A stretch of 64,000 bases of DNA from Clostridia bacterium (GTDB taxonomy: Bacteria; Bacillota; Clostridia; Peptostreptococcales; Acidaminobacteraceae): positions 1-64,000 of the forward strand of contig JAGYOH010000013.1 in NCBI GenBank assembly GCA_018399635.1, written 5' to 3'. Numbering within the stretch: the stretch's first letter is position 1; each line of letters begins with the position of its first letter. The position numbers and the translations under genes are program-made. Of this stretch, positions 1 through 9,093 are shown one piece after another. Under the pieces are notes generated by a model. That model ran no database searches, had not been told where the DNA came from, and saw only the letters and a list, made by a program, of their open reading frames with translations.

Positions 1-44
1 TTCCAATCTGTGAAGTCGGTTTTTTTTTAATTTAAAAATTGCTT

Positions 45-74
45 CTGACACAGGGGCCGGTCTTGTGTTACAAT
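45..74 (+). promoter_or_regulatory. Sigma-A-like promoter for the gate-protein pair
   Basis: A -35 hexamer CTGACA (45-50) is followed after 18 bases by a -10 hexamer TACAAT (69-74), each 5 of 6 to consensus. Transcription would begin near 81, leaving a very short leader before the ATG at 90. A run of nine T at 20-28 may be the tail of a terminator whose stem lies left of the window. Confidence 0.45.
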
Positions 75-89
75 CTGAGTGGTGATGAC

Positions 90-509
90 ATGTTGAAAAT
101 GGCAACCTTGAAGCGGGGATTTCACAAGGGAATCATGACGGCCCTGGACATGGGCAAGATTCTGGTTCCGATCTATATTCTGGTGTCCTTGCTCAAGGAG
201 ACCCCCGTCATACCTGTGATTTCAGGCGCTCTGACGCCCCTCATGGGGCTTTTCGGCCTGCCCGGGGAGGCTTCCATCGCGATTGTTCTCGGCAATGTCA
301 TCAATATGTACGGGGCCCTGGGAGCCATGGCTTCCCTGGACCTGACGGCCAAGCAGATCACCATCATCGCGGTGATGCTCTCCTTTTCCCATTCTCTGAT
401 CGTGGAATCCACCATCATGAAAAAGGTGGGGGTCAGCGTCCTGATGATCATCGTCATTCGGGTCGGTCTTTCCGTGACTTCGGGCATCATACTCAACTGG
501 ATTCTTTAG
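90..509 (+). CDS. Nucleoside-recognition (Gate) domain membrane protein, first of a pair
   Basis: A 139-residue, very hydrophobic protein with several membrane segments and the glycine/asparagine-rich pattern of the nucleoside-recognition Gate family (SpmA/SpmB, YjiG/YjiH-like). Family members are thought to form small membrane pores or transporters, but the substrate is rarely known. ATG 90 is chosen because a GGTGA stretch lies just before it and the promoter at 45-74 leaves no room for the in-frame TTG at 39. The stop lies 9 bases before the next gene, whose product is of the same family, so the two probably form one heteromeric unit. The specific function is not known. Confidence 0.75.
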   Translation: MLKMATLKRGFHKGIMTALDMGKILVPIYILVSLLKETPVIPVISGALTPLMGLFGLPGEASIAIVLGNVINMYGALGAMASLDLTAKQITIIAVMLSFSHSLIVESTIMKKVGVSVLMIIVIRVGLSVTSGIILNWIL

Positions 510-518
510 GAGGTCGTC

Positions 519-953
519 ATGATTGTTGATGCGGTTCTGGGAGCCTTGAAATCCTATTTCAATATCGTCATCATCATTGTTCCGGTCCTGATGTTCATCG
601 AAATCGCCCGGGACCTCAACATCATCGCCTGGTCGGCCAGGCTCATGCATCCCGTCACCCGGCATCTCAAAATGGCGGATGAAGGGACGATTCTGGTGGC
701 CATCGGGATGATCTTCGGCCTGACCTACGGGGCCGGGGCCATTATCCAGAGTGCCAGGGACGGTCATCTCGACAAAAGGAGCATGATCCTGGTAGCGGTC
801 TTCGTTTCCACCTGCCATGCCCTCATCGAGGATACCTTCCTCTTTTCCGCCCTGGGAGCCGACATCGCCCTGGTGATGGGGGTCCGGTTCATGGTGGCCA
901 TGATTCTCACCACCTTCATGGGGATGCGGATTGCTCAAACCAAGCCGCTTTGA
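519..953 (+). CDS. Nucleoside-recognition (Gate) domain membrane protein, second of a pair
   Basis: A 144-residue membrane protein with about four hydrophobic segments, similar in style to the preceding gene and to YjiG/SpmB-like halves of Gate transporters. It contains a conserved-looking patch with the motif GLTYGAGAIIQSA near residues 67-79. AGGAGG at 508-513 gives a strong start at ATG 519. Co-transcription with the upstream gene is very likely because only nine bases separate them. The family is often adjacent to amino-acid or peptide metabolism genes; here the next unit is aromatic amino acid biosynthesis under its own promoter, so no functional link is claimed. Confidence 0.75.
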   Translation: MIVDAVLGALKSYFNIVIIIVPVLMFIEIARDLNIIAWSARLMHPVTRHLKMADEGTILVAIGMIFGLTYGAGAIIQSARDGHLDKRSMILVAVFVSTCHALIEDTFLFSALGADIALVMGVRFMVAMILTTFMGMRIAQTKPL

Positions 954-1006
954 GTTTCCCATATTATTTGAAGCCTTGAACGAAATTGCCCTTTTCAAGG
1001 GATTGT

Positions 1007-1028
1007 GTTCCCTGTCTTGACAGGGAAC
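1007..1028 (+). promoter_or_regulatory. Perfect 22-bp palindrome over the -35 box of the aro leader promoter
   Basis: Two 10-base arms, GTTCCCTGTC (1007-1016) and GACAGGGAAC (1019-1028), flank a TT centre. The TTGACA -35 element (1017-1022) lies inside it. The position suggests a repressor operator. It could also act as an RNA hairpin ending the upstream transcript, but no U-run follows it. Confidence 0.5.
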
Positions 1029-1045
1029 CGTAAAAAGAATAAACT
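1017..1045 (+). promoter_or_regulatory. Sigma-A-like promoter of the aromatic leader/aro operon
   Basis: A consensus TTGACA (1017-1022), a 17-base spacer and TAAACT (1040-1045, 4 of 6) place the transcript start near 1052, about 25 bases before the leader-peptide ATG. Confidence 0.65.
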
Positions 1046-1076
1046 GTTCCTAACTTAATGACAGGCGGTACGGATC

Positions 1077-1169
1077 ATGAAGAGGACTATGGAAGCGCAA
1101 AACCACATGGATTTCAACTATTTCTACGGCTGGGGCTATTACTTTTTTAGCGCCGGCGGTTTGAATTGA
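1077..1169 (+). CDS. Aromatic-rich leader peptide of the aro attenuator (30 aa)
   Basis: A short open frame starts at ATG 1077 after AGGCGG (1063-1068, 8-base spacing) and ends at TGA 1167-1169. Residues 13-24 read FNYFYGWGYYFF, so 9 of 12 are Phe, Tyr or Trp. This is the hallmark of a ribosome-sensing leader peptide like those of pheA and trp operons. The stop codon lies two bases before the antiterminator strand at 1172, so a ribosome that finishes the peptide would cover that strand, while one stalled on the aromatic codons (1113-1148) would leave it free. The peptide itself probably has no other role. It sits just upstream of two shikimate-pathway genes. Confidence 0.85.
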   Translation: MKRTMEAQNHMDFNYFYGWGYYFFSAGGLN

Positions 1170-1171
1170 AA

Positions 1172-1286
1172 AAATCCCTTCCAATGTCCGAGAGTGATTG
1201 AGTGGATCAAGGTCATTGAACAGTCCTCAAGGTGAGGACATTGAAAAGCAGTCTGAAGGGATTTCCGAGGGAAATCCCTTTTTTTT
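1172..1286 (+). promoter_or_regulatory. Ribosome-mediated transcription attenuator (antiterminator/terminator)
   Basis: The terminator is an 11-bp perfect stem (1256-1266 with 1270-1280, loop GAG) followed by eight T (1279-1286). The sequence AAATCCCTT occurs both as the terminator 3' arm (1272-1280) and upstream at 1172-1180, so the upstream copy can pair with AAGGGATTT (1256-1264) and block the terminator. Next to it, CAATGTCC (1182-1189) can pair with GGACATTG (1236-1243), which extends the antiterminator. A competing 7-bp hairpin (1223-1229 with 1233-1239) would free the terminator. These strands are arranged as required for control by the aromatic leader peptide at 1077-1169: aromatic starvation favours read-through and sufficiency favours termination. 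Confidence 0.85.
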
Positions 1287-1327
1287 ATGCTTTTTAGAAA
1301 CGACGGAGAAAAACAAGGAGGATTACG

Positions 1328-2203
1328 ATGCCCAGACTAGAGATGCTCAGAAGAAAGGTCGATGATGTCGATCAAAAGATGGCGGCGCTGCTGGAACAAA
1401 GACTGAAACTCGTGCTTGAAATCATGGAAGAGAAGAAACACCAGCGTCTTCCGATTTTCAGCAAGGACCGGGAGGCCGAGGTGATTGAAAGGGTGGGCAA
1501 TCACGTCCGCAATCCCCTTTTGAAGGAGGAAGTCCGGTTCATCCACCAGTACGTGGTACAAAGCTGTCGCAGAATCCAGTCCCGCAGGCTTTTCCCCTAC
1601 CACATCACCCTGGTGGGGTTCATGGGAAGCGGCAAGACCACCGTGGGGGTGGAACTGTCCAAACTTCTGGCCATGGAACAGATTGACGTGGACCATGTCA
1701 TCGAGGACCGGACCAAGATGCGCATCAGTGAAATATTCGAACATTTCGGTGAGAAGACCTTCAGGAAAATGGAAAGCGACGTGGTGGAGGAGCTTTCCAA
1801 GCGGCACAACGTCATCATCTTCTGCAGTGGCGGCGGGGTGGTGCTCAATGAAAGCAATGTGGAGCACATCAAGCGCACCGGCGTGGTGGTCTGGCTCAAG
1901 GCCTCTGCTGAAGAGATTTTCCGCAGAATCAAGGACGACGACAGCCGTCCCTTGCTCAAGGATGACATGACGGTGGAAAAAATCGCCGCAATGCTGAAGG
2001 ACAGACGCCACCTCTACGAGGGGGCGGCGGACCTCGTCATCGATACCGACGGCAAAACCGTCGAAGCCGTGAGCTGTGAAATCGTGGAAAGACTCATGGA
2101 GAAGGAATTCGACCGAAGGGTGGATGACAAGGACATCGAGGCCGTTGACCTGGTTCCCAGAATCATGAAGTCCATGGATTCGGCGAGCGAATCCTACAAA
2201 TAA
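1328..2203 (+). CDS. Chorismate mutase (AroQ class)–shikimate kinase fusion
   Basis: A two-domain enzyme of 291 residues. Residues 1-88 form an all-helical AroQ-type chorismate mutase domain. Residues 92-270 are shikimate kinase: Walker A GFMGSGKTT (97-105), the substrate-binding acidic pair D120/D122, SGGG (167-170) and the lid motif RPLL (207-210). The kinase makes shikimate-3-phosphate. The mutase converts chorismate to prephenate at the Phe/Tyr branch. AAGGAGG at 1315-1321 sets the start. A terminal tail of about 30 residues is of no known type. The gene lies directly behind the aromatic attenuator and is followed after a few bases by dehydroquinase, so the pair is probably one biosynthetic operon controlled by aromatic amino acid supply. 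Confidence 0.9.
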   Translation: MPRLEMLRRKVDDVDQKMAALLEQRLKLVLEIMEEKKHQRLPIFSKDREAEVIERVGNHVRNPLLKEEVRFIHQYVVQSCRRIQSRRLFPYHITLVGFMGSGKTTVGVELSKLLAMEQIDVDHVIEDRTKMRISEIFEHFGEKTFRKMESDVVEELSKRHNVIIFCSGGGVVLNESNVEHIKRTGVVVWLKASAEEIFRRIKDDDSRPLLKDDMTVEKIAAMLKDRRHLYEGAADLVIDTDGKTVEAVSCEIVERLMEKEFDRRVDDKDIEAVDLVPRIMKSMDSASESYK

Positions 2204-2215
2204 GGGGGAATGTCA

Positions 2216-2986
2216 GTGAGCCGGCATGTTCAAATCGGAAAAGTCACTCTGGGAGAGGGATGCCCGAAAATCTGTGTACCCCTGGTGGGGAAGGACCATG
2301 AAACCCTGATGCGGGAAGCCGCCATCATCACCACACTGCCTGCGGATCTGGTGGAATGGCGGGTGGATTTCTTCGATGGGGTCTCGGATGAAACCCAGGT
2401 CCTTGACACCTTGAAGGGCATCAAAGGAATCCTCAAAGATCTGCCCATGATCTTCACCTTCAGAACCCTGTCCGAGGGGGGAGTGAGACCCTTTTCACCG
2501 GCGGCCTATGAAAGTCTTTTAAGGACGGTCATTGAAGCCGGTGAAATCGAGGCGGTGGATCTCGAACTCTTCGCGGAGGCCGTGAGCAAATCCAGTCTGG
2601 TGACCCTGGCCCGGAAAAAAGAAGTCAAGGTGGTCATGTCAAGTCACGACTTTCACAAGACACCTTCGATGGATGAGATCGTCAGCCGCCTCCTGAGAGC
2701 AAGGGAGGAGGGGGCCGATATTCCTAAAATCGCCGTCATGCCCGGGAACGCCAGGGATGTGGGGATTCTTCTGGAGGCCACCAGAATCGTCAAGGAGGAT
2801 CATGGTGTCGGCCCCCTCATCACCATGGCCATGGGCGGTTTGGGCCTTGTGACCCGGCTTTCCGGGGAAATTTTCGGATCAAGTCTGACCTTCGGAGCGG
2901 CCAGGGAAGTATCCGCTCCAGGACAGATCGATGCGGTGACACTCAAAAAAATCATCGCTTTGGTCCATGACAGCTTTGAAGAATAA
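2216..2986 (+). CDS. aroD: Type I 3-dehydroquinate dehydratase
   Basis: This enzyme dehydrates 3-dehydroquinate to 3-dehydroshikimate through a lysine Schiff base. At 256 residues it matches the usual AroD length. The catalytic pair H144 (in SSHDFHK) and K171 (in IPKIAVMP) sits within one residue of the E. coli numbering, and substrate-binding residues E47, R49 and R83 are present. The start is taken as GTG 2216 because the AGGGGG Shine-Dalgarno at 2203-2208 is seven bases away from it; it would touch the ATG at 2210. The gene is the second of the attenuator-controlled unit. A catabolic use in quinate breakdown is possible given the downstream cluster, but the leader control points to biosynthesis. 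Confidence 0.92.
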   Translation: MSRHVQIGKVTLGEGCPKICVPLVGKDHETLMREAAIITTLPADLVEWRVDFFDGVSDETQVLDTLKGIKGILKDLPMIFTFRTLSEGGVRPFSPAAYESLLRTVIEAGEIEAVDLELFAEAVSKSSLVTLARKKEVKVVMSSHDFHKTPSMDEIVSRLLRAREEGADIPKIAVMPGNARDVGILLEATRIVKEDHGVGPLITMAMGGLGLVTRLSGEIFGSSLTFGAAREVSAPGQIDAVTLKKIIALVHDSFEE

Positions 2987-3034
2987 CATTTTATAAATTT
3001 TGTTGAGGTTGGCATCACAGGCCTCAGGCAGTCG

Positions 3035-3064
3035 ATCCCGGGTTCGAAATGATGAATCCGGGAT
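3035..3064 (+). terminator. Stem-loop after aroD (terminator-like, no U-run)
   Basis: An 11-bp stem with one G-U pair (3035-3045 with 3054-3064) closes an 8-base loop. Only TTCTTGT follows, so termination would be weak. It separates aroD from the promoter of the catabolic cluster. Confidence 0.45.
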
Positions 3065-3096
3065 TCTTGTAGGATGAAAAATTCCTTGAATACTTA

Positions 3097-3125
3097 TTGA
3101 CAAGTCTCCTGAAGGATGATATTTT
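3097..3125 (+). promoter_or_regulatory. Promoter of the catabolic cluster
   Basis: A consensus TTGACA (3097-3102), 17-base spacer and TATTTT (3120-3125) predict a start near 3132, followed by a leader of about 70 bases to the TTG start at 3201. Confidence 0.55.
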
Positions 3126-3152
3126 GAAGACAGTTCCAATCTGTGTTATCAA

Positions 3153-3169
3153 GTTCCATCAGACGGAAC
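3153..3169 (+). promoter_or_regulatory. Candidate operator: GTTCC-N7-GGAAC inverted repeat
   Basis: A perfect 5-base inverted repeat (3153-3157, 3165-3169) lies about 20-35 bases downstream of the predicted transcript start, a fitting place for a roadblock-type repressor such as the IclR protein encoded at the end of the cluster. The link to that regulator is inference. Confidence 0.3.
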
Positions 3170-3200
3170 AAAGCCGAATCACCTTAGGAGGAGATCTAAA

Positions 3201-4022
3201 TTGTCCAGAAAGTACTCGTTGGCCCATTTGACCGTACTGCAAGTCCCCCCACCAGAAATGATCTATATCGCTTCCATGGCCGGTTACGATTATGTGAGCC
3301 TGAGAACGATTTACATGGGTTTGCCGGGTGAACCCAACTACGAACTGTCTAAAAACAAAGAGATGCTCAAACAAACCAGAAGAGCCCTTTCAGACACCGG
3401 CCTCAAGCTTCTGGACATCGAACTGGCCAGGGTCTTCGACGGCATGGACCCCAGGGCCTTTGAACCGGCCATGGCGGTGGCCGCCGAACTGGGAGGCAGG
3501 CATGTCCTGAGCAGTATCTGGACTGACAATCGGGATTATTATCTGGAAAAATTCGCTCAGATCTGCGACCTGGCCAAGGGTTACGGCCTCACCGTCGATC
3601 TTGAATTCGTTCCCATTGCCGGCGTCAAGGATCTCAAGGGAACCATCGACGTGCTTGAAACCGTGAACCGGGACAATGCCGGTATCATGATCGACACCCA
3701 TCATTTTCAGCGCTCTGGTGAAAATCCCGAGGAACTGAAAAAACTGCCGCGGTCCTGGTTCAATTTCGCCCATCTCTGCGATGCCCCGGGACCCATCCCC
3801 ACCGATAACGAGGAGATGACCCGGATACTCAGGGAGGCCCGTGAATATGTGGGTGAGGGAGGCATCAATGTCGCTGAAATACTCGGTGCCATGCCGAGGG
3901 AGATCAATTACTCCATTGAGCTGCCCAATCTTGAAAAGGTCAGGGAGCTCGGTTATGCCGAACATGCCAGAAGATGTCTTGTCACAGCAAAGGCCTATAT
4001 GGATCAGCACCTGCCACTATAA
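3201..4022 (+). CDS. Sugar phosphate isomerase/epimerase-like TIM-barrel protein
   Basis: A 273-residue member of the xylose-isomerase-like TIM-barrel superfamily (IolE, IolI, QuiC/AsbF relatives). Likely divalent-metal ligands fall in the usual order: E135 (in DLEFVP), D165/H168 (in IDTHHF), H191 (in FAHLCDAP) and E240 (in SIELPN). Such proteins isomerise or dehydrate polyhydroxy keto compounds. The start is TTG 3201, nine bases after AGGAGG (3186-3191). It is the first gene of a cluster with acylating aldehyde dehydrogenase, Gfo/Idh/MocA dehydrogenase, ThDP enzyme and TRAP transporter. The nearby aroD and aroE-like genes leave 3-dehydroshikimate dehydratase-type activity open, but nothing in the sequence decides the substrate. 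Confidence 0.8.
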   Translation: MSRKYSLAHLTVLQVPPPEMIYIASMAGYDYVSLRTIYMGLPGEPNYELSKNKEMLKQTRRALSDTGLKLLDIELARVFDGMDPRAFEPAMAVAAELGGRHVLSSIWTDNRDYYLEKFAQICDLAKGYGLTVDLEFVPIAGVKDLKGTIDVLETVNRDNAGIMIDTHHFQRSGENPEELKKLPRSWFNFAHLCDAPGPIPTDNEEMTRILREAREYVGEGGINVAEILGAMPREINYSIELPNLEKVRELGYAEHARRCLVTAKAYMDQHLPL

Positions 4023-4072
4023 AAACATTGGTGAAGCGGTCGTATTCATCAATCGATGAGGAGGAAAATGAG

Positions 4073-5494
4073 ATGAGTGAAGTCAAAGAGAAAGCCTTGA
4101 CCCCGGAACAGAGAGCAGAACTCGATGAAGCCTTTGCCAGGGCCAGGAAGGCCATGAAGGAGATCGAGAATCACACCCAGGAAGAGGTGGATCATCTGAT
4201 CAGGGCGGTCGCCTGGTCCGTGGCCCACAAGCAGGCCTTTGAAAAACTGGCGGTCATGGGGGTCGAGGAAAGCGGACTCGGCGATCCCGTGGGCCGGGTG
4301 AACAAGCGATTCAAGATCAAGGGAATCCTCAGGGATGCCTTGAGACAAAAGAGTGTCGGTATCATTGAAGAAATTCCGGAAAAGGGCATCGTGAAGTACG
4401 GCAAGCCCGTGGGAATCATCGGTTCCATCGTTCCCACCACCAACCCGGAACTGACCCCGCCCGGCACGGCCATCTACGGCATCAAGGCCAGGAACGCCAT
4501 CATTTTTTCACCACATCCCCGTTCGAAAAAAACCACCTTCGAGACCGTCAGACTGATGAGGGAGGCTTTGAAAAAGCAAGGCGCCCCTGAGGACCTCCTC
4601 ATCTGTCTGCAGAATGTCAACATCCCCATGACCAAGGCCCTGATGGCGGAGTGTGATCTGGTTCTGGCCACCGGAGGCCCGGCAATGGTAGCCTCCGCCT
4701 ACAGTTCGGGGACTCCAGCCTATGGAGTGGGGGCAGGGAATTCCACCATGATCATCGACGAAACGGCGGATGTCGAAGAGGCGGCCATGAACACCCGGAT
4801 GAGCAAAACCTCAGATTTCGGGTCCGGCTGCTCGGCCGACGGCAATCTGATCATCGAGGACACCGTCTATGACGCCATGCTGGTCCAACTTCAGAAGGAG
4901 GGGGGCTACCTGGCTTCTGAAGAAGAGAAGGAAATGCTCAAAAAAGTGATGTGGGACGAGGAAGGGCATCGACTTCCGGACACCGTGGCCCAGGCCGCAC
5001 CGACCCTGGCCAGACTTGCCGGCTTTGAGATTCCCGAGGACCGGAAATTCATCATCGTCGTCGGGGACGGCATCGGCAAGGAGCATTTCTTCTCGAGTGA
5101 AAAACTCACCACCCTCCTGGCGGTCTACCGCTACAAGGGCTTTGAGAAGGCCCTCGACATGATGAGAGGCATTTACGAAGTCAAGGGCAAGGGCCACTCC
5201 TGCGGCATCTATTCCTTCAATGACGACCATATCCATCGACTGGCCCTGGCGGCGCCGGTGAGCCGGATCATGGTGAGACAGCCCCAGTCCAAGGCCAACG
5301 CCGGATCCTTTACCAACGGCATGCCCATGACCTCGAGCCTGGGCTGCGGGACCTGGGGGGGCAATATCGTCTCCGAAAATGTCAACCTCAAACACTACAT
5401 GAACGTTACCTGGGTGGCCAAGCCGATTCCCGAGGACAAGCCATCGGATGAAGAACTCTTTGGTGAATTCTACGATCCAACATTGGATCAATAA
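4073..5494 (+). CDS. CoA-acylating aldehyde dehydrogenase (EutE/PduP/SauS-like)
   Basis: A 473-residue aldehyde dehydrogenase of the acylating branch, which converts an aldehyde, CoA and NAD(P)+ to acyl-CoA or the reverse. The catalytic cysteine is C253 in DFGSGCSADG. The GSIVPTTNP segment (about 117-125) is typical of the EutE/AdhE-type nucleotide fold, and overall the protein most resembles the sulfoacetaldehyde dehydrogenase (SauS) subgroup. The start at ATG 4073 follows GAGGAGG (4058-4064); longer upstream frames overlap the previous gene. In this operon it would take the aldehyde released by the ThDP enzyme two genes downstream. The sulfonate substrate of SauS is not established here. 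Confidence 0.85.
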   Translation: MSEVKEKALTPEQRAELDEAFARARKAMKEIENHTQEEVDHLIRAVAWSVAHKQAFEKLAVMGVEESGLGDPVGRVNKRFKIKGILRDALRQKSVGIIEEIPEKGIVKYGKPVGIIGSIVPTTNPELTPPGTAIYGIKARNAIIFSPHPRSKKTTFETVRLMREALKKQGAPEDLLICLQNVNIPMTKALMAECDLVLATGGPAMVASAYSSGTPAYGVGAGNSTMIIDETADVEEAAMNTRMSKTSDFGSGCSADGNLIIEDTVYDAMLVQLQKEGGYLASEEEKEMLKKVMWDEEGHRLPDTVAQAAPTLARLAGFEIPEDRKFIIVVGDGIGKEHFFSSEKLTTLLAVYRYKGFEKALDMMRGIYEVKGKGHSCGIYSFNDDHIHRLALAAPVSRIMVRQPQSKANAGSFTNGMPMTSSLGCGTWGGNIVSENVNLKHYMNVTWVAKPIPEDKPSDEELFGEFYDPTLDQ

Positions 5495-5505
5495 GGGGTG
5501 AAATC

Positions 5506-6681
5506 ATGAAGTCAGTGGTGGTTGTGGGGATGGCGGGAGCAGGATACGCCGCCACCCTCCACGGAAACGGGTACCGCAGAGTCAGCGGCATCGAGGTGAG
5601 ACTCAAGACCGTGGTGGACCTTGATATTCAAAAGGCACGGAGAGTTGCCGAGACCTATGGCTTTGAAATGGCGACGGATAGTTTTGAAGAAATGTTGATG
5701 GACGAGGAAATCGATGTCATTGACATCGTCACCCCCCCGGCCCTGCACGAAGAAATGATTATCAGAGCATTTGCGGCAGGCAAGCACGTAATTTGTGAAA
5801 AACCCTTGAGCGGTTACTTCGGGACGCCAGAGGACGTGAAACCTATCGGCATCAAGGTTCCGAAAAGAAAGATGTACGAGGCGGTTCTGGAATCCATGGA
5901 TCGAATCGAGGCGGCCCTTGAAAAAGCACCAGGCCGATTCTTGTATGCCGAGAACTATGTCTACAGCACTCCTCTAGAGAAGTCCGCTCAACTGCTCCGG
6001 GCGAAGAAATCCCGCATTCTTTTCGCAAAGGGAGAGGAGAGTCTGAAGGGATCGAGTTCCCCCGTCGCCGGCAGATGGGACATGACAGGAGGTGGAAGCA
6101 TGATTCGACTCGGCGTCCATCCGTTATCGGGAATCATCTGGCTCAAGCAGCAAGAAGCCAGGGCACTTGGAAGAAGCATCCGGGTAGAGAGCGTGATGGC
6201 TGATACGGGGGTCGTCACCGCAAATCTTGACGATTACGAGAAACGACACATCAGCGCTGAACCGGAGGATGTCGAGGACATCGGCACCCTGACTCTGACT
6301 TTTACAGATGGATCCAAGGCCCTCATCATTGCTTCGGATCTCTGCCTTGGGGGAACCAAGAACGAAATCGAACTGTATTGCAATGACACCAACCATGTCT
6401 GTCACATCACGCCAACTGACCTGCTGAGCACTTATTATCTGGATGAAGAAGGGATGGAAGAGCTGGTTCTGGCAGAAATGCTACCTTCGAAACTCGGCTG
6501 GAACAAGGCTTTTGTCTCTGACGAAATCATCAGAGGCTACACAGCCCAGATGCAGGATTTTATGGAGAGCATCGCCCATGACCGGGAACCGAAGTCCGGT
6601 TTCAATCTGGCCAGGGAGACACTGAAAACCATCTACGCCGGCTACTGGTCGGCTGAAGAGGGACAAAGAATCAATCTATAG
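5506..6681 (+). CDS. Gfo/Idh/MocA family NAD(P)-dependent oxidoreductase
   Basis: A 391-residue two-domain dehydrogenase. The N-terminal Rossmann fold starts with GMAGAG (8-13) and ends with the family signature CEKP (97-100), whose K99 contacts substrate. The C-terminal alpha/beta domain contains the GGGSMIRLGVHPLSG segment with the likely catalytic histidine. Relatives oxidise inositols, hexoses and amino-sugars at a ring or chain hydroxyl. It lies 11 bases after the aldehyde dehydrogenase and 9 before the ThDP enzyme, so it is surely co-transcribed. Codon choice looks somewhat less GC-biased than in its neighbours, possibly a separate origin. A role as the first oxidation step in the pathway is inferred. 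Confidence 0.85.
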   Translation: MKSVVVVGMAGAGYAATLHGNGYRRVSGIEVRLKTVVDLDIQKARRVAETYGFEMATDSFEEMLMDEEIDVIDIVTPPALHEEMIIRAFAAGKHVICEKPLSGYFGTPEDVKPIGIKVPKRKMYEAVLESMDRIEAALEKAPGRFLYAENYVYSTPLEKSAQLLRAKKSRILFAKGEESLKGSSSPVAGRWDMTGGGSMIRLGVHPLSGIIWLKQQEARALGRSIRVESVMADTGVVTANLDDYEKRHISAEPEDVEDIGTLTLTFTDGSKALIIASDLCLGGTKNEIELYCNDTNHVCHITPTDLLSTYYLDEEGMEELVLAEMLPSKLGWNKAFVSDEIIRGYTAQMQDFMESIAHDREPKSGFNLARETLKTIYAGYWSAEEGQRINL

Positions 6682-6690
6682 GAGGCGGCT

Positions 6691-8490
6691 ATGAAAAAAC
6701 TGATATCCCATCAATTGGTGGACTACCTCGAAAGAAGGGGAGTCACCCATGTCTTCGGCCTCTGCGGCCATACGGTCATCGGGATGCTCGATCCCTTGAT
6801 GAAGGCGAAACTGAAATTCATTTCCGTGCGACATGAGCAGGTGGCGGCCCACGCCGCCGACGCCTATGCCCGGGTGAGCAAGAAAGCCAGCGTCCTTCTG
6901 ACCCACCTCGGACCCGGCCTCACCAATGCCACCACCGGGGTGGCCAATGCGGCCCTGGACTTCATTCCCATGGTGGTCATTGCCGGCGATGTACCCAGCT
7001 ACTATTATGGCAAACATCCCCACCAGGAGGTCAACCTCCACGGGGACGGTTCCCAGTATGAAATCTACAAGCCCTTCGTGAAACGGGCCTGGCGGATCGA
7101 CAAGGCGGAACTCTTTCCCGAGATTCTCGACAAGGCCTTTCGACTTGCGGAATCCGGCCGACCCGGACCGGTACTGATTTCCGTTCCCATGGACATGTTT
7201 TCAAGAGAAATCGACACCCTCTGGTTCGAAAGAACCTATCGGGACGCCCATGAAACCATCAAGCCCTCACTGGATCCTGAAACTGCGAAAGCCGTGGCCA
7301 AGGCCCTGATCGAGGCGAAGCATCCGGTGATCCATGTGGGTTCCCAGGTCATCTACCACCAGGCTACTGAGGCCTTGAAGGACCTGGTTGAATTCCTGGA
7401 CCTGCCCGTGACCCACGGTCTCATGGGGCAGGGCGCCATTCCCGACACCCATCCCCTCCACGTCGGCATGACGGGATTCTGGGGCACTCAGTTCGTCAAC
7501 GGCGTGACCAAGGGAGCCGACCTGGTTCTCGGAGTCGGCACCCGGTTTGCGGAAGCGGACAGCAGCTCCTGGTACGAGGGCGTGACCTTTTCTGAGAAGA
7601 CCACCTTCATGCAGATCGACCCGGATCCCGCTGAAATCGGCAGGAACTACCCCGTGGCCCTGGGTGCGGTGGCGGATCCCCGAAAAGCCCTTCAGGCCAT
7701 ACTGGAGGCGGCAAAGACCTTGGTTCCCGAGGGGATTGACCGTCCTGGAATCAGGGCTGCCATAGCCACCTACCGCAGGGATTTCAAAGCTTCAAACCAG
7801 GCTATTTCAGAGGATGACCGATATCCCATGACTCCTCAGAGGATTCTCAAGGATGTGGCGGAGGTCTTTCCGGCCGACGGCATCATCGTCACCGATGTGG
7901 GCTGGAACAAGAACGGCATGGGCCAGCAGTACGACATCACCCATCCCGGGACCATTCTCCATCCCGGCGGACTGGCCACCATGGGCTTCGGTCCCGCGGC
8001 CGTCCTGGGGGCGAAACTGGCAGCCCCGGACAAGAAAGTGATCACCCTGGTGGGTGACGGCGGTTTCGGCGCCAATCCAACCGTGATGGCCACTGCAGTG
8101 GAACAGAACATTCCCGTGGTCTGGGTCGTGATGAACAACCGCGCCTTCGGCACCATCGCCGGTCTTGAAGCCGCCCACTATGACCATTCCTTCGGAACCC
8201 TGTTCAAGAAGCCCGACGGTTCCTCCTACAGCCCGCAGTGGGCCGAGGTGGCCAGGGCCTACGGTATCAAAGGCAGAAAAATCCAGGCGGCGGCGGAATT
8301 CAAGTCAGCCCTGGCTGAGGCCCTTGCCGCCGATGAACCCTATCTTCTGGATGTGCCCATGGAAAATATTCCAGTACCCACCGACGGCATCTGGAATATC
8401 AACGATATCTATACTCCCAAGGAGAATGTCGCAGAGGGAAGACTTTTCGGTGGTGAGGCCATCAAATCGCTTCACAGAGCGACGGATTAA
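6691..8490 (+). CDS. Thiamine diphosphate-dependent enzyme, acetolactate synthase-like
   Basis: A 599-residue ThDP enzyme with the standard three domains: the PYR domain with activating glutamate E49 (in VRHEQ), a central Rossmann domain, and the PP domain with the GDG...NN cofactor motif (GDG 455-457, NN 482-483). Family members include acetolactate synthase, sulfoacetaldehyde acetyltransferase, glyoxylate carboligase and the inositol enzyme IolD. It is not obviously any of these. Its place between a Gfo/Idh/MocA dehydrogenase and a TRAP transporter, with an acylating aldehyde dehydrogenase nearby, suggests C-C cleavage or decarboxylation that releases an aldehyde. AGGAGG just before ATG 6691 supports the start. 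Confidence 0.85.
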   Translation: MKKLISHQLVDYLERRGVTHVFGLCGHTVIGMLDPLMKAKLKFISVRHEQVAAHAADAYARVSKKASVLLTHLGPGLTNATTGVANAALDFIPMVVIAGDVPSYYYGKHPHQEVNLHGDGSQYEIYKPFVKRAWRIDKAELFPEILDKAFRLAESGRPGPVLISVPMDMFSREIDTLWFERTYRDAHETIKPSLDPETAKAVAKALIEAKHPVIHVGSQVIYHQATEALKDLVEFLDLPVTHGLMGQGAIPDTHPLHVGMTGFWGTQFVNGVTKGADLVLGVGTRFAEADSSSWYEGVTFSEKTTFMQIDPDPAEIGRNYPVALGAVADPRKALQAILEAAKTLVPEGIDRPGIRAAIATYRRDFKASNQAISEDDRYPMTPQRILKDVAEVFPADGIIVTDVGWNKNGMGQQYDITHPGTILHPGGLATMGFGPAAVLGAKLAAPDKKVITLVGDGGFGANPTVMATAVEQNIPVVWVVMNNRAFGTIAGLEAAHYDHSFGTLFKKPDGSSYSPQWAEVARAYGIKGRKIQAAAEFKSALAEALAADEPYLLDVPMENIPVPTDGIWNINDIYTPKENVAEGRLFGGEAIKSLHRATD

Positions 8491-8553
8491 AAGCGTGTAT
8501 AATGGGGTATGACGACATGCTTTAATTGAACAAACCTTAAGGAGGTGCAAATC

Positions 8554-9093
8554 GTGAAAGTGATCAAATGGTTGGACAAGAACTTCGAAGAGGTTCTACT
8601 GATGGTCTTCCTGGTGGGCATTGTGTTGGTCATGGGGGTCCAGGTATTCATGCGGTATTTGTTGAACGAATCCTTGTCATGGTCTGAAGAATTGAGTCGG
8701 TATCTCTTCGTATGGTCGGCATTTCTGAGTGTCAGCTACACTATCCGAAACGATTCCATCATCAGGATCGACCAGCTGGTCCGAATGCTGCCGCCGCAAT
8801 CCTTCCTTCGAAAAAGTCTGATTATCATTGTGAAAGTGTTCTTGTTGGTCTTTTTCGCCTACATCTTCTATTACGCCATTGATGTGGTATCGAATGCCAT
8901 TGCGAGAGGACAAAAGAGTGCGGCCATGGGACTGCCCATGTACCTGGTCCAGGCATCCATCCTGGTCGGGTCAGGGCTTTCAGTCATCCGAATGATCCAA
9001 TCGCTGCTCAAGGGCTCAAGACCCATGATCGATCCCGAGGATGAAATACGGGAAATCGATGAATTGATAGAAGAGGCCAGTGGACAAATGTAA
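8554..9093 (+). CDS. TRAP transporter small membrane subunit (DctQ type)
   Basis: A 179-residue protein with four hydrophobic segments and the DctQ signature around LNESLSWSEELSRYLFVW. DctQ bridges the large permease in tripartite ATP-independent periplasmic (TRAP) transporters, which use an ion gradient to import carboxylates or sulfonates. The start is placed at GTG 8554, eight bases after AAGGAGG (8539-8545). The in-frame GTG at 8545 would overlap that site. A TATAAT at 8498-8503 just upstream lacks a spaced -35, so a separate promoter is doubtful. It forms an operon with the large subunit 36 bases downstream and the lipoprotein binding subunit. Confidence 0.9.
   Translation: MKVIKWLDKNFEEVLLMVFLVGIVLVMGVQVFMRYLLNESLSWSEELSRYLFVWSAFLSVSYTIRNDSIIRIDQLVRMLPPQSFLRKSLIIIVKVFLLVFFAYIFYYAIDVVSNAIARGQKSAAMGLPMYLVQASILVGSGLSVIRMIQSLLKGSRPMIDPEDEIREIDELIEEASGQM

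Follow-up and report, generated by a model that had tools for sequence, protein, structure and literature searches.

Leader-peptide attenuators of Proteobacteria include those of trp, his, and pheA. Background on them is also given in PMC9413887 and PMC1262725, the latter of which covers trp attenuators in Actinobacteria as well. The authors of PMC2965389, who predicted hisS leader-peptide attenuators in bacilli, stated that no leader-peptide system was known outside Proteobacteria and Actinobacteria save ermC. Histidine leader attenuators have been predicted in Firmicutes including Peptostreptococcaceae (PMC9413887), and the Leu-rich cis-acting attenuator peptide of the Staphylococcus aureus ilv operon was tested by its authors (PMC5794164). 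An earlier note on the DNA studied here argued for novelty on the ground that Firmicutes usually use T-boxes or TRAP, which is too strong, since Firmicutes leader-peptide attenuators are in print. Closest to the present case are two descriptions of short ORFs in front of aromatic genes. The candidate uORFC-13-1, a Phe uORF with an intrinsic terminator before aroF for which the authors propose attenuation, was described in 2021 with 24 representatives found only in Acholeplasma and environmental DNA (PMC8632094), and a 2019 survey of five genomes, Clostridium novyi among them, reported two candidate uORFs with Phe and Tyr that are associated with shikimate genes (PMC6429828). Searches of open-licence literature, in which most subscription papers are missing, showed no published family of aromatic leader peptides in Clostridia. 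The terms 'leader peptide', 'aroF', and 'attenuat' do not occur in a C. difficile riboswitch review (PMC11477304), nor do 'leader peptide' and 'DAHP' in a survey of 104 candidate RNAs (PMC2864571).

Here we describe a leader in front of shikimate genes in a stretch of 64,000 nucleotides from a Clostridia bacterium (the window). As judged from sequence comparison and folding, it is very probably a ribosome-mediated transcription attenuator that senses charged tRNA for Phe and Tyr, and perhaps for Trp. The mechanism itself is of a known kind; what the analysis adds is the breadth of the family, the genes behind its leaders, and a hairpin within the control codons, here called P1.

Layout of the locus

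The window's first 3 kb carry, upstream of the leader, a pair of small membrane-type genes, of which the latter has a Gate domain (Pfam). The gap of 374 bases between the Gate-domain gene and the chorismate mutase-shikimate kinase gene holds a promoter-like site, the leader, and a terminator, as follows.

1017-1045, + strand: sigma-70-like promoter TTGACA-17-TAAACT (consensus scan 10/12, chance expectation 0.6)
1063-1068, + strand: Shine-Dalgarno-like AGGCGG, 8 nt 5' of the leader ATG (read directly)
1077-1169, + strand: predicted leader peptide ORF, 30 codons plus TGA, MKRTMEAQNHMDFNYFYGWGYYFFSAGGLN, with the aromatic run at 1113-1148
1084-1114, + strand: segment 1, pairing as 1084-1087/1186-1189, 1090-1095/1178-1183, and 1109-1114/1172-1177 in the minimum-energy fold
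1130-1156, + strand: hairpin P1 in the control codons, CUGG-G-GCU (1130-1137) with AGC-G-CCGG (1149-1156) and a G x G mismatch, in the window fold
1172-1189, + strand: segment 2, with the antiterminator strand at 1172-1180 and the partner of segment 1 at 1172-1189
1256-1264, + strand: segment 3, AAGGGATTT, terminator 5' arm and partner of segment 2 or 4
1255-1281, + strand: intrinsic terminator hairpin (segments 3:4) followed by a T run, 12 pairs, -16.5 kcal/mol for 1250-1290
1328-2203, + strand: first gene, chorismate mutase (CM_2)-shikimate kinase (SKI) fusion (Pfam E 2.8e-15 and 6.2e-49)
2210-2986, + strand: second gene, aroD, type I 3-dehydroquinate dehydratase (Pfam E 8.4e-69; TIGR01093 above cut-off)

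Transcription is expected to start near 1052, as the promoter-like site suggests. The sister genome described below has TTGACA-17-TACACT at the same position and also carries AGGCGG. Terminator-like sites number four in 950-1330 on both strands (0.5 expected), two of which overlap at 1255-1281, and region 1052-1300 folds 5.9 sd better than its dinucleotide shuffles (z -5.9), none of 200 shuffles being as good. 

Much of what the earlier note had read from the letters holds. The 30-codon leader with nine Phe/Tyr/Trp residues in 12 is present at 1077-1169, its run being FNYFYGWGYYFF (1113-1148), and no other stretch in the six frames of the window has at least nine aromatic residues in 12 codons, nor does any in 10 dinucleotide-shuffled windows. 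The genes said to belong to the shikimate pathway are a chorismate mutase-shikimate kinase fusion and aroD by Pfam. Direct reading also bears out the exact repeat of 1172-1180 (AAATCCCTT) at 1272-1280 and its complementarity to 1256-1264, as well as that of 1182-1189 (CAATGTCC) to 1236-1243. Features absent from that note are segment 1 (1084-1095 and 1109-1114) and P1 (1130-1137/1149-1156). The locus combines the hallmarks by which an attenuator is recognized: codons of the regulated amino acids clustered in a short predicted ORF, an intrinsic terminator (1255-1281) 5' of the first gene, a segment 2 complementary to the terminator 5' arm in 9 of 9 bases (p 0.03), a segment 1 able to pair with segment 2, as seen in the window fold and in the family tests given below, and downstream genes that make the amino acids of the control codons.

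Beyond these genes, the next cluster (3201-9093) encodes a TIM-barrel isomerase-like protein, an aldehyde dehydrogenase, and a Gfo/Idh-like dehydrogenase (Pfam, NCBIfam), together with an acetolactate synthase-type thiamine-diphosphate enzyme and the small subunit of a TRAP transporter. The top NCBIfam match of the aldehyde dehydrogenase is the acylating sulfoacetaldehyde dehydrogenase SauS, at 488.8 bits below the cut-off of 600, and the cluster is perhaps a sulfonate or sugar-acid catabolic operon.

A leader family in front of aromatic genes

The earlier note had treated the leader as a feature of a single Clostridia-like genome, and had let its reading depend on conservation of the leader frame and the stem pairing in relatives. 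Both are conserved in relatives, and the leader belongs instead to a family that extends across the order and class. Nearest is a sister genome (LQBE01000010.1), the only match in a contig scan for the region, which has the same leader before the same gene. It keeps DFNYFYGWGYYFFSAG, and its three nucleotide differences from the window there are all synonymous. After the SAG codons, however, the sister has an extra T (TTTT versus TTT in the window, 1161-1170) that shifts the frame, so that its leader ORF has 49 codons and runs through segment 2, whereas that of the window ends just before segment 2. Since both are draft assemblies in many contigs, a sequence error at this site is possible. The sister record is named 'delta proteobacterium ML8_F1' at NCBI, a label that looks doubtful because the window's genome carries 19 T-box matches, 7 of them over the cut-off. 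T-boxes and gene content suggest that the genome is Clostridia-like, although a search of it for a Spo0A domain, meant to support such a placement, found none.

A search of relatives with the single leader protein gave matches in 31 of 148 genomes at E<=1, many of them by chance; their coherent part consisted of short ORFs with F.WG[FY]YFSAG before DAHP synthase or chorismate mutase-shikimate kinase. The profile built from 13 leaders found in this way matched in 95 of 393 genomes of the order (E<=0.1) and in 20 of 398 genomes of the phylum (E<=0.01), the latter including the window's own genome and some weak, doubtful matches. With 11 weak profile rows (E 8.5e-4 to 0.095) left out, 138 places were fetched, of which 130, in 103 genomes, have an S-A-G-type triplet; these make up the family, and 123 of them have a terminator-like hairpin 3' of the leader. 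The window's genome itself holds a second copy, L114, before aroF-tyrA-aroA-aroC-pheA. At two places (L124, G241:C1:1978200-1978599, and L126, G194:C69:494-894), one pair per genome, leaders lie in tandem about 290 bases apart in the same orientation. These are apparent tandem attenuators, which could sharpen the response.

The family is absent from Rfam, Pfam, and NCBIfam. Rfam 15 gave no gathering-score match in the window and, up to E 10, four sub-threshold matches near the site, the best at 0.081. The T-box (RF00230), considered as a candidate for the site, had no match there at gathering, nor up to E 10 in 1000-1330. For the 13 leaders, NCBIfam gave no family at E<=1, and Pfam only two unrelated families with one leader each (E 0.12 and 0.34).

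The genes behind the leaders are mostly those of aromatic biosynthesis. First-gene labels are named BLAST clusters, with Pfam applied to representatives or to the window genome's own copies; the labels checked by Pfam are DAHP synthase, tyrA, aroA, aroC, pheA, SSF, LarA, SBF, type II dehydroquinase, and chorismate mutase-shikimate kinase. DAHP synthase is the first gene at 93 of the 130 places, and another shikimate or aromatic-branch gene at 17 further ones. Chorismate mutase-shikimate kinase comes first at 9 of the 130, pheA at 4, aroE at 2 (by BLAST cluster label only), and aroA at 1. A sodium:solute symporter is first at 4 (L056, L133, L141, and L170), a LarA-like protein of the lactate racemase family at 3 (L168, L169, and L176), and a cluster with only a weak Iso_dh match at 3; at the remaining 11, the first gene is another one, in one case type II dehydroquinase, or none was found. 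An SBF-family transporter lies behind the leader at one place (L162). The shared leaders suggest aromatic substrates for the symporter, LarA-like, and SBF proteins, whose identities come from Pfam on one representative each, and thus tie genes of unknown substrate to aromatic amino acids.

Since the leader profile favours aromatic frames, an RNA model without a reading frame was used as a second test. This covariance model, R1, was built from the 73 aligned leaders described below with no reading frame supplied. It scores the window, a training sequence, at E 4.7e-7, and it matched in 43 of 291 genomes of the class (E<=0.01). The 45 matched rows comprised 30 with loci and 15 without; 28 loci were examined (L235 and L239 were known already), and 27 of these are independent of model building, the exception being L224. 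Taking the best frame per locus, we found an open aromatic-rich frame at 28 of 28, with 6-13 aromatic codons per 22 codons at 20 loci and 8-12 in the best 18 codons at 8. A tblastn search with representatives of the family placed DAHP synthase behind 24 of the 28, tyrA or pheA behind two (L233 and L244), and aroA about 1.4 kb downstream at one (L229); the last (L240) has a weak symporter match of 69 bits. R1 thus finds further members of the family.

Alternative pairings and folding of growing transcripts

In the proposed mechanism, RNA polymerase would start near 1052 and a ribosome would begin the leader at 1077. When charged aromatic tRNA is plentiful, the ribosome would reach the stop codon (1167-1169) and cover the start of segment 2; with no ribosome, segment 1 would pair with segment 2. 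In either situation the 3:4 terminator (1255-1281) would form, and transcription would end in vivo before the chorismate mutase-shikimate kinase gene. When aromatic tRNA is short, the ribosome would stall in 1113-1148, between segments 1 and 2, so that segment 2 would be free to pair with segment 3, the terminator would be pre-empted, and the aro genes would be transcribed.

The competing structures have window energies of -16.5 (terminator), -14.2 (2:3 duplex), and -10.6 kcal/mol (1:2 duplex). In folding of growing transcripts without a ribosome, the antiterminator had a probability of 0.00 and the terminator reached 0.96 by 1280. With the A site at 1119, the antiterminator stood at 0.94-0.96 for transcript ends 1264-1271. 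With the ribosome at the stop codon, it stood at 0.00. When pairs across the ribosome are barred, it stood at 0.93-0.98 at all nine aromatic codons (ends 1264-1271) and again at 0.00 at the stop codon. When such pairs are allowed, A sites 1119-1125 alone gave about 0.5 or more (0.48-0.96), while for the same ends 1137 kept a partial effect (0.21-0.35), 1131 a small one (0.06-0.10), and 1113 and 1140-1146 gave 0.00-0.03. With the transcript end at 1280, the terminator was favoured at all positions if spanning pairs are allowed, and at 6 of 9 aromatic codons if they are barred. The antiterminator must therefore form before segment 4 is made, and timing matters.

For the pairings in the family, 79 non-redundant leaders of the 130 were used (<=80% identical, E<=0.02, terminator 60-175 nt after the Ser codon). 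The pairing of each leader with its own partner was compared with that of partners permuted among the 79, segment 2 being taken as 18-66 nt after the Ser codon and segment 1 as 110-36 nt before it. Own 2:3 pairing averaged 13.09 against 11.79 for permuted partners (sd 0.26), and own 1:2 pairing 20.65 against 16.35 (sd 0.35), with 0 of 10,000 permutations as high in either case, whereas a decoy region with the terminator arm was equalled by 1122 of 10,000. Against dinucleotide shuffles, z was 9.4 (2:3) and 16.4 (1:2), and 1.6 and -2.4 for decoys. Furthermore, the paired sequences themselves vary among members, as in CTAATGAG/CTCATTAG, TCTAAGA/TCTTAGA, AAATCCCTT/AAGGGATTT, and CGGGAAACT/AGTTTCCCG. 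In many leaders, segments 1 and 2 show through in the peptide as N-terminal LIRKG and C-terminal FSNE.

This pairing signal belongs to the set as a whole rather than to each leader. Leaders above their own 95% shuffle limit number 31 of 79 for 1:2 and 16 of 79 for 2:3, only 45 of 79 pair better in 2:3 with their own arm than with the median foreign arm, and an individual pairing test gave p<=0.05 for 47% of 122 records. The second copy in the window's genome, at the aroF operon, has no clear 2:3 match (12.5, p 0.82). The stop-codon step may also differ among members, since the stop of the window precedes segment 2, as one of only 6 of 79 with a stop before +43, while in 67 of 79 the stop lies at +54 or later, past the usual place of segment 2. 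In the latter, the translating ribosome itself would open segment 2.

The composition of the leaders bears on what would be sensed. In the 22-codon core, the 79 leaders average 6.1 Phe, 4.7 Tyr, and 1.1 Trp, and almost every position of the aromatic run is F in some leaders and Y in others. Given these counts and shared positions, Phe and Tyr supply are the likely signals. The view of the earlier note that the leader would sense all three aromatics is plausible, but its Trp part is weakly supported, since there is about one Trp codon and P1 would conserve it anyway.

Hairpin P1, rival readings, and known systems

Among 73 aligned leaders (of the 79, L163, L197, L198, L201, L206, and L100 were left out as weak or odd), RNAalifold found one helix, P1, in which C-UGG-R-GCU pairs with AGC-G-CNGG across a mismatch. 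In P1, 98.6% of 511 alignment cells are paired, three pairs show changes on both sides (6 cells), and 0 of 500 shuffles reach any of five measures. Sliding one strand by 1-3 columns lowers pairing to 20-47%; in the control with a -1 slide, 28.2% of cells pair and three pairs (4 cells) likewise show two-sided changes. As the alignment rows are related, these counts are not independent events. Where UGG becomes UUG, in four sequences, the Ala codon changes from GCU to GCA and restores a U-A pair in three (L114, L179, and L099), the fourth, L096, having no matching change. For the Ser of SAG, 119 of 122 codons are AGC, and for the Gly that follows W, 80 of 82 are GGC; the Gly of SAG varies, with GGC in 46, GGT in 42, GGA in 14, and GGG in 2. 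The conserved W-G and S-A-G codons are thus explained by P1, which implies that a stretch of peptide can be held constant by RNA structure, with no selection acting on the peptide itself.

This has a direct bearing on a nascent-chain arrest, for which TnaC is the model. Here a peptide of the type W-G-x-YFFSAG would stall the ribosome in response to free aromatic amino acids, and the sequences might seem to invite it: 113 of 130 leaders have a Trp no more than 10 residues ahead of the triplet, and in 89 of 130 the triplet is exactly S-A-G. Yet what is kept is the codon rather than the residue (AGC and GGC, as above), the UUG change is compensated by GCA in 3 of 4 sequences, and hardly any position of the run is restricted to F or to Y; an arrest triggered by excess would presumably also work in the wrong sense for biosynthetic genes. 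We regard such an arrest as improbable. Slightly less probable still is a riboswitch or protein-binding RNA in which P1 and the 1:2 stem bind a ligand and the reading frame is incidental. P1 is indeed more invariant than pairing requires, one pair being C-G in 73 of 73, but Rfam has no gathering-score match in the window, the aromatic-rich frame is open at all the R1 loci examined, again with the best frame taken, and the P1 loop lengths of 5, 8, 11, 14, or 20 are in frame in 100 of 100, a set chosen by the protein profile and the left-arm pattern. That an aromatic ORF stands by chance before a plain terminator, with no regulation, has a negligible probability: short ORFs abound, positions 1-9000 holding 105 of 25 codons or more, but conservation across the family, gene association, covariation, and a frame and pairings kept in relatives argue against it.

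We therefore keep to the ribosome-mediated attenuator, within which P1, a nascent-RNA hairpin where the ribosome should be, probably pauses the polymerase or slows the ribosome, so that the two stay in step. The motif TTNTTT, which we take to be a NusG-type pause motif, was considered as well and set aside; it occurs just 3' of P1 in 25 of 79 leaders against 17.7 in shuffles, a weak excess. A bolder reading, which we put forward tentatively as possible rather than probable, is that of an uncatalogued, class-wide attenuator in which P1 combines codons with a programmed pause or slow-down signal and possibly a second sensor. If true, this would be the main switch on shikimate pathway entry in a large group of Clostridia-like bacteria. 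To our knowledge, a hairpin of this kind within the control codons has no counterpart in the textbook trp and his attenuators.

The leader family offers a testable answer to how DAHP synthase and the shikimate pathway are controlled in many Clostridia-like bacteria, with leader-peptide attenuation and T-boxes side by side in one genome. Like the T-box (RF00230), the family would answer tRNA charging before amino acid genes in Firmicutes; unlike the proposed leader-peptide switch, the T-box binds tRNA directly. The predicted His and hisS attenuators of Firmicutes have His codons before his or hisS genes (PMC9413887, PMC2965389), and the S. aureus attenuator has Leu codons before branched-chain genes (PMC5794164), unlike the aromatic codons and genes of the present family. 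By its published description, uORFC-13-1 contains at least one Phe (PMC8632094), and the shikimate uORFs reported in PMC6429828 may already include part of the leader family. With the Proteobacterial attenuators, the family shares an ORF with control codons, the 1:2, 2:3, and 3:4 alternatives, an intrinsic terminator, and biosynthetic genes downstream. Unlike them, it mixes Phe, Tyr, and Trp codons, its segment 1 precedes the control codons or coincides with their beginning, these codons contain an additional conserved hairpin, P1, and segment 2 is usually inside the ORF, as the late stops in 67 of 79 leaders indicate.
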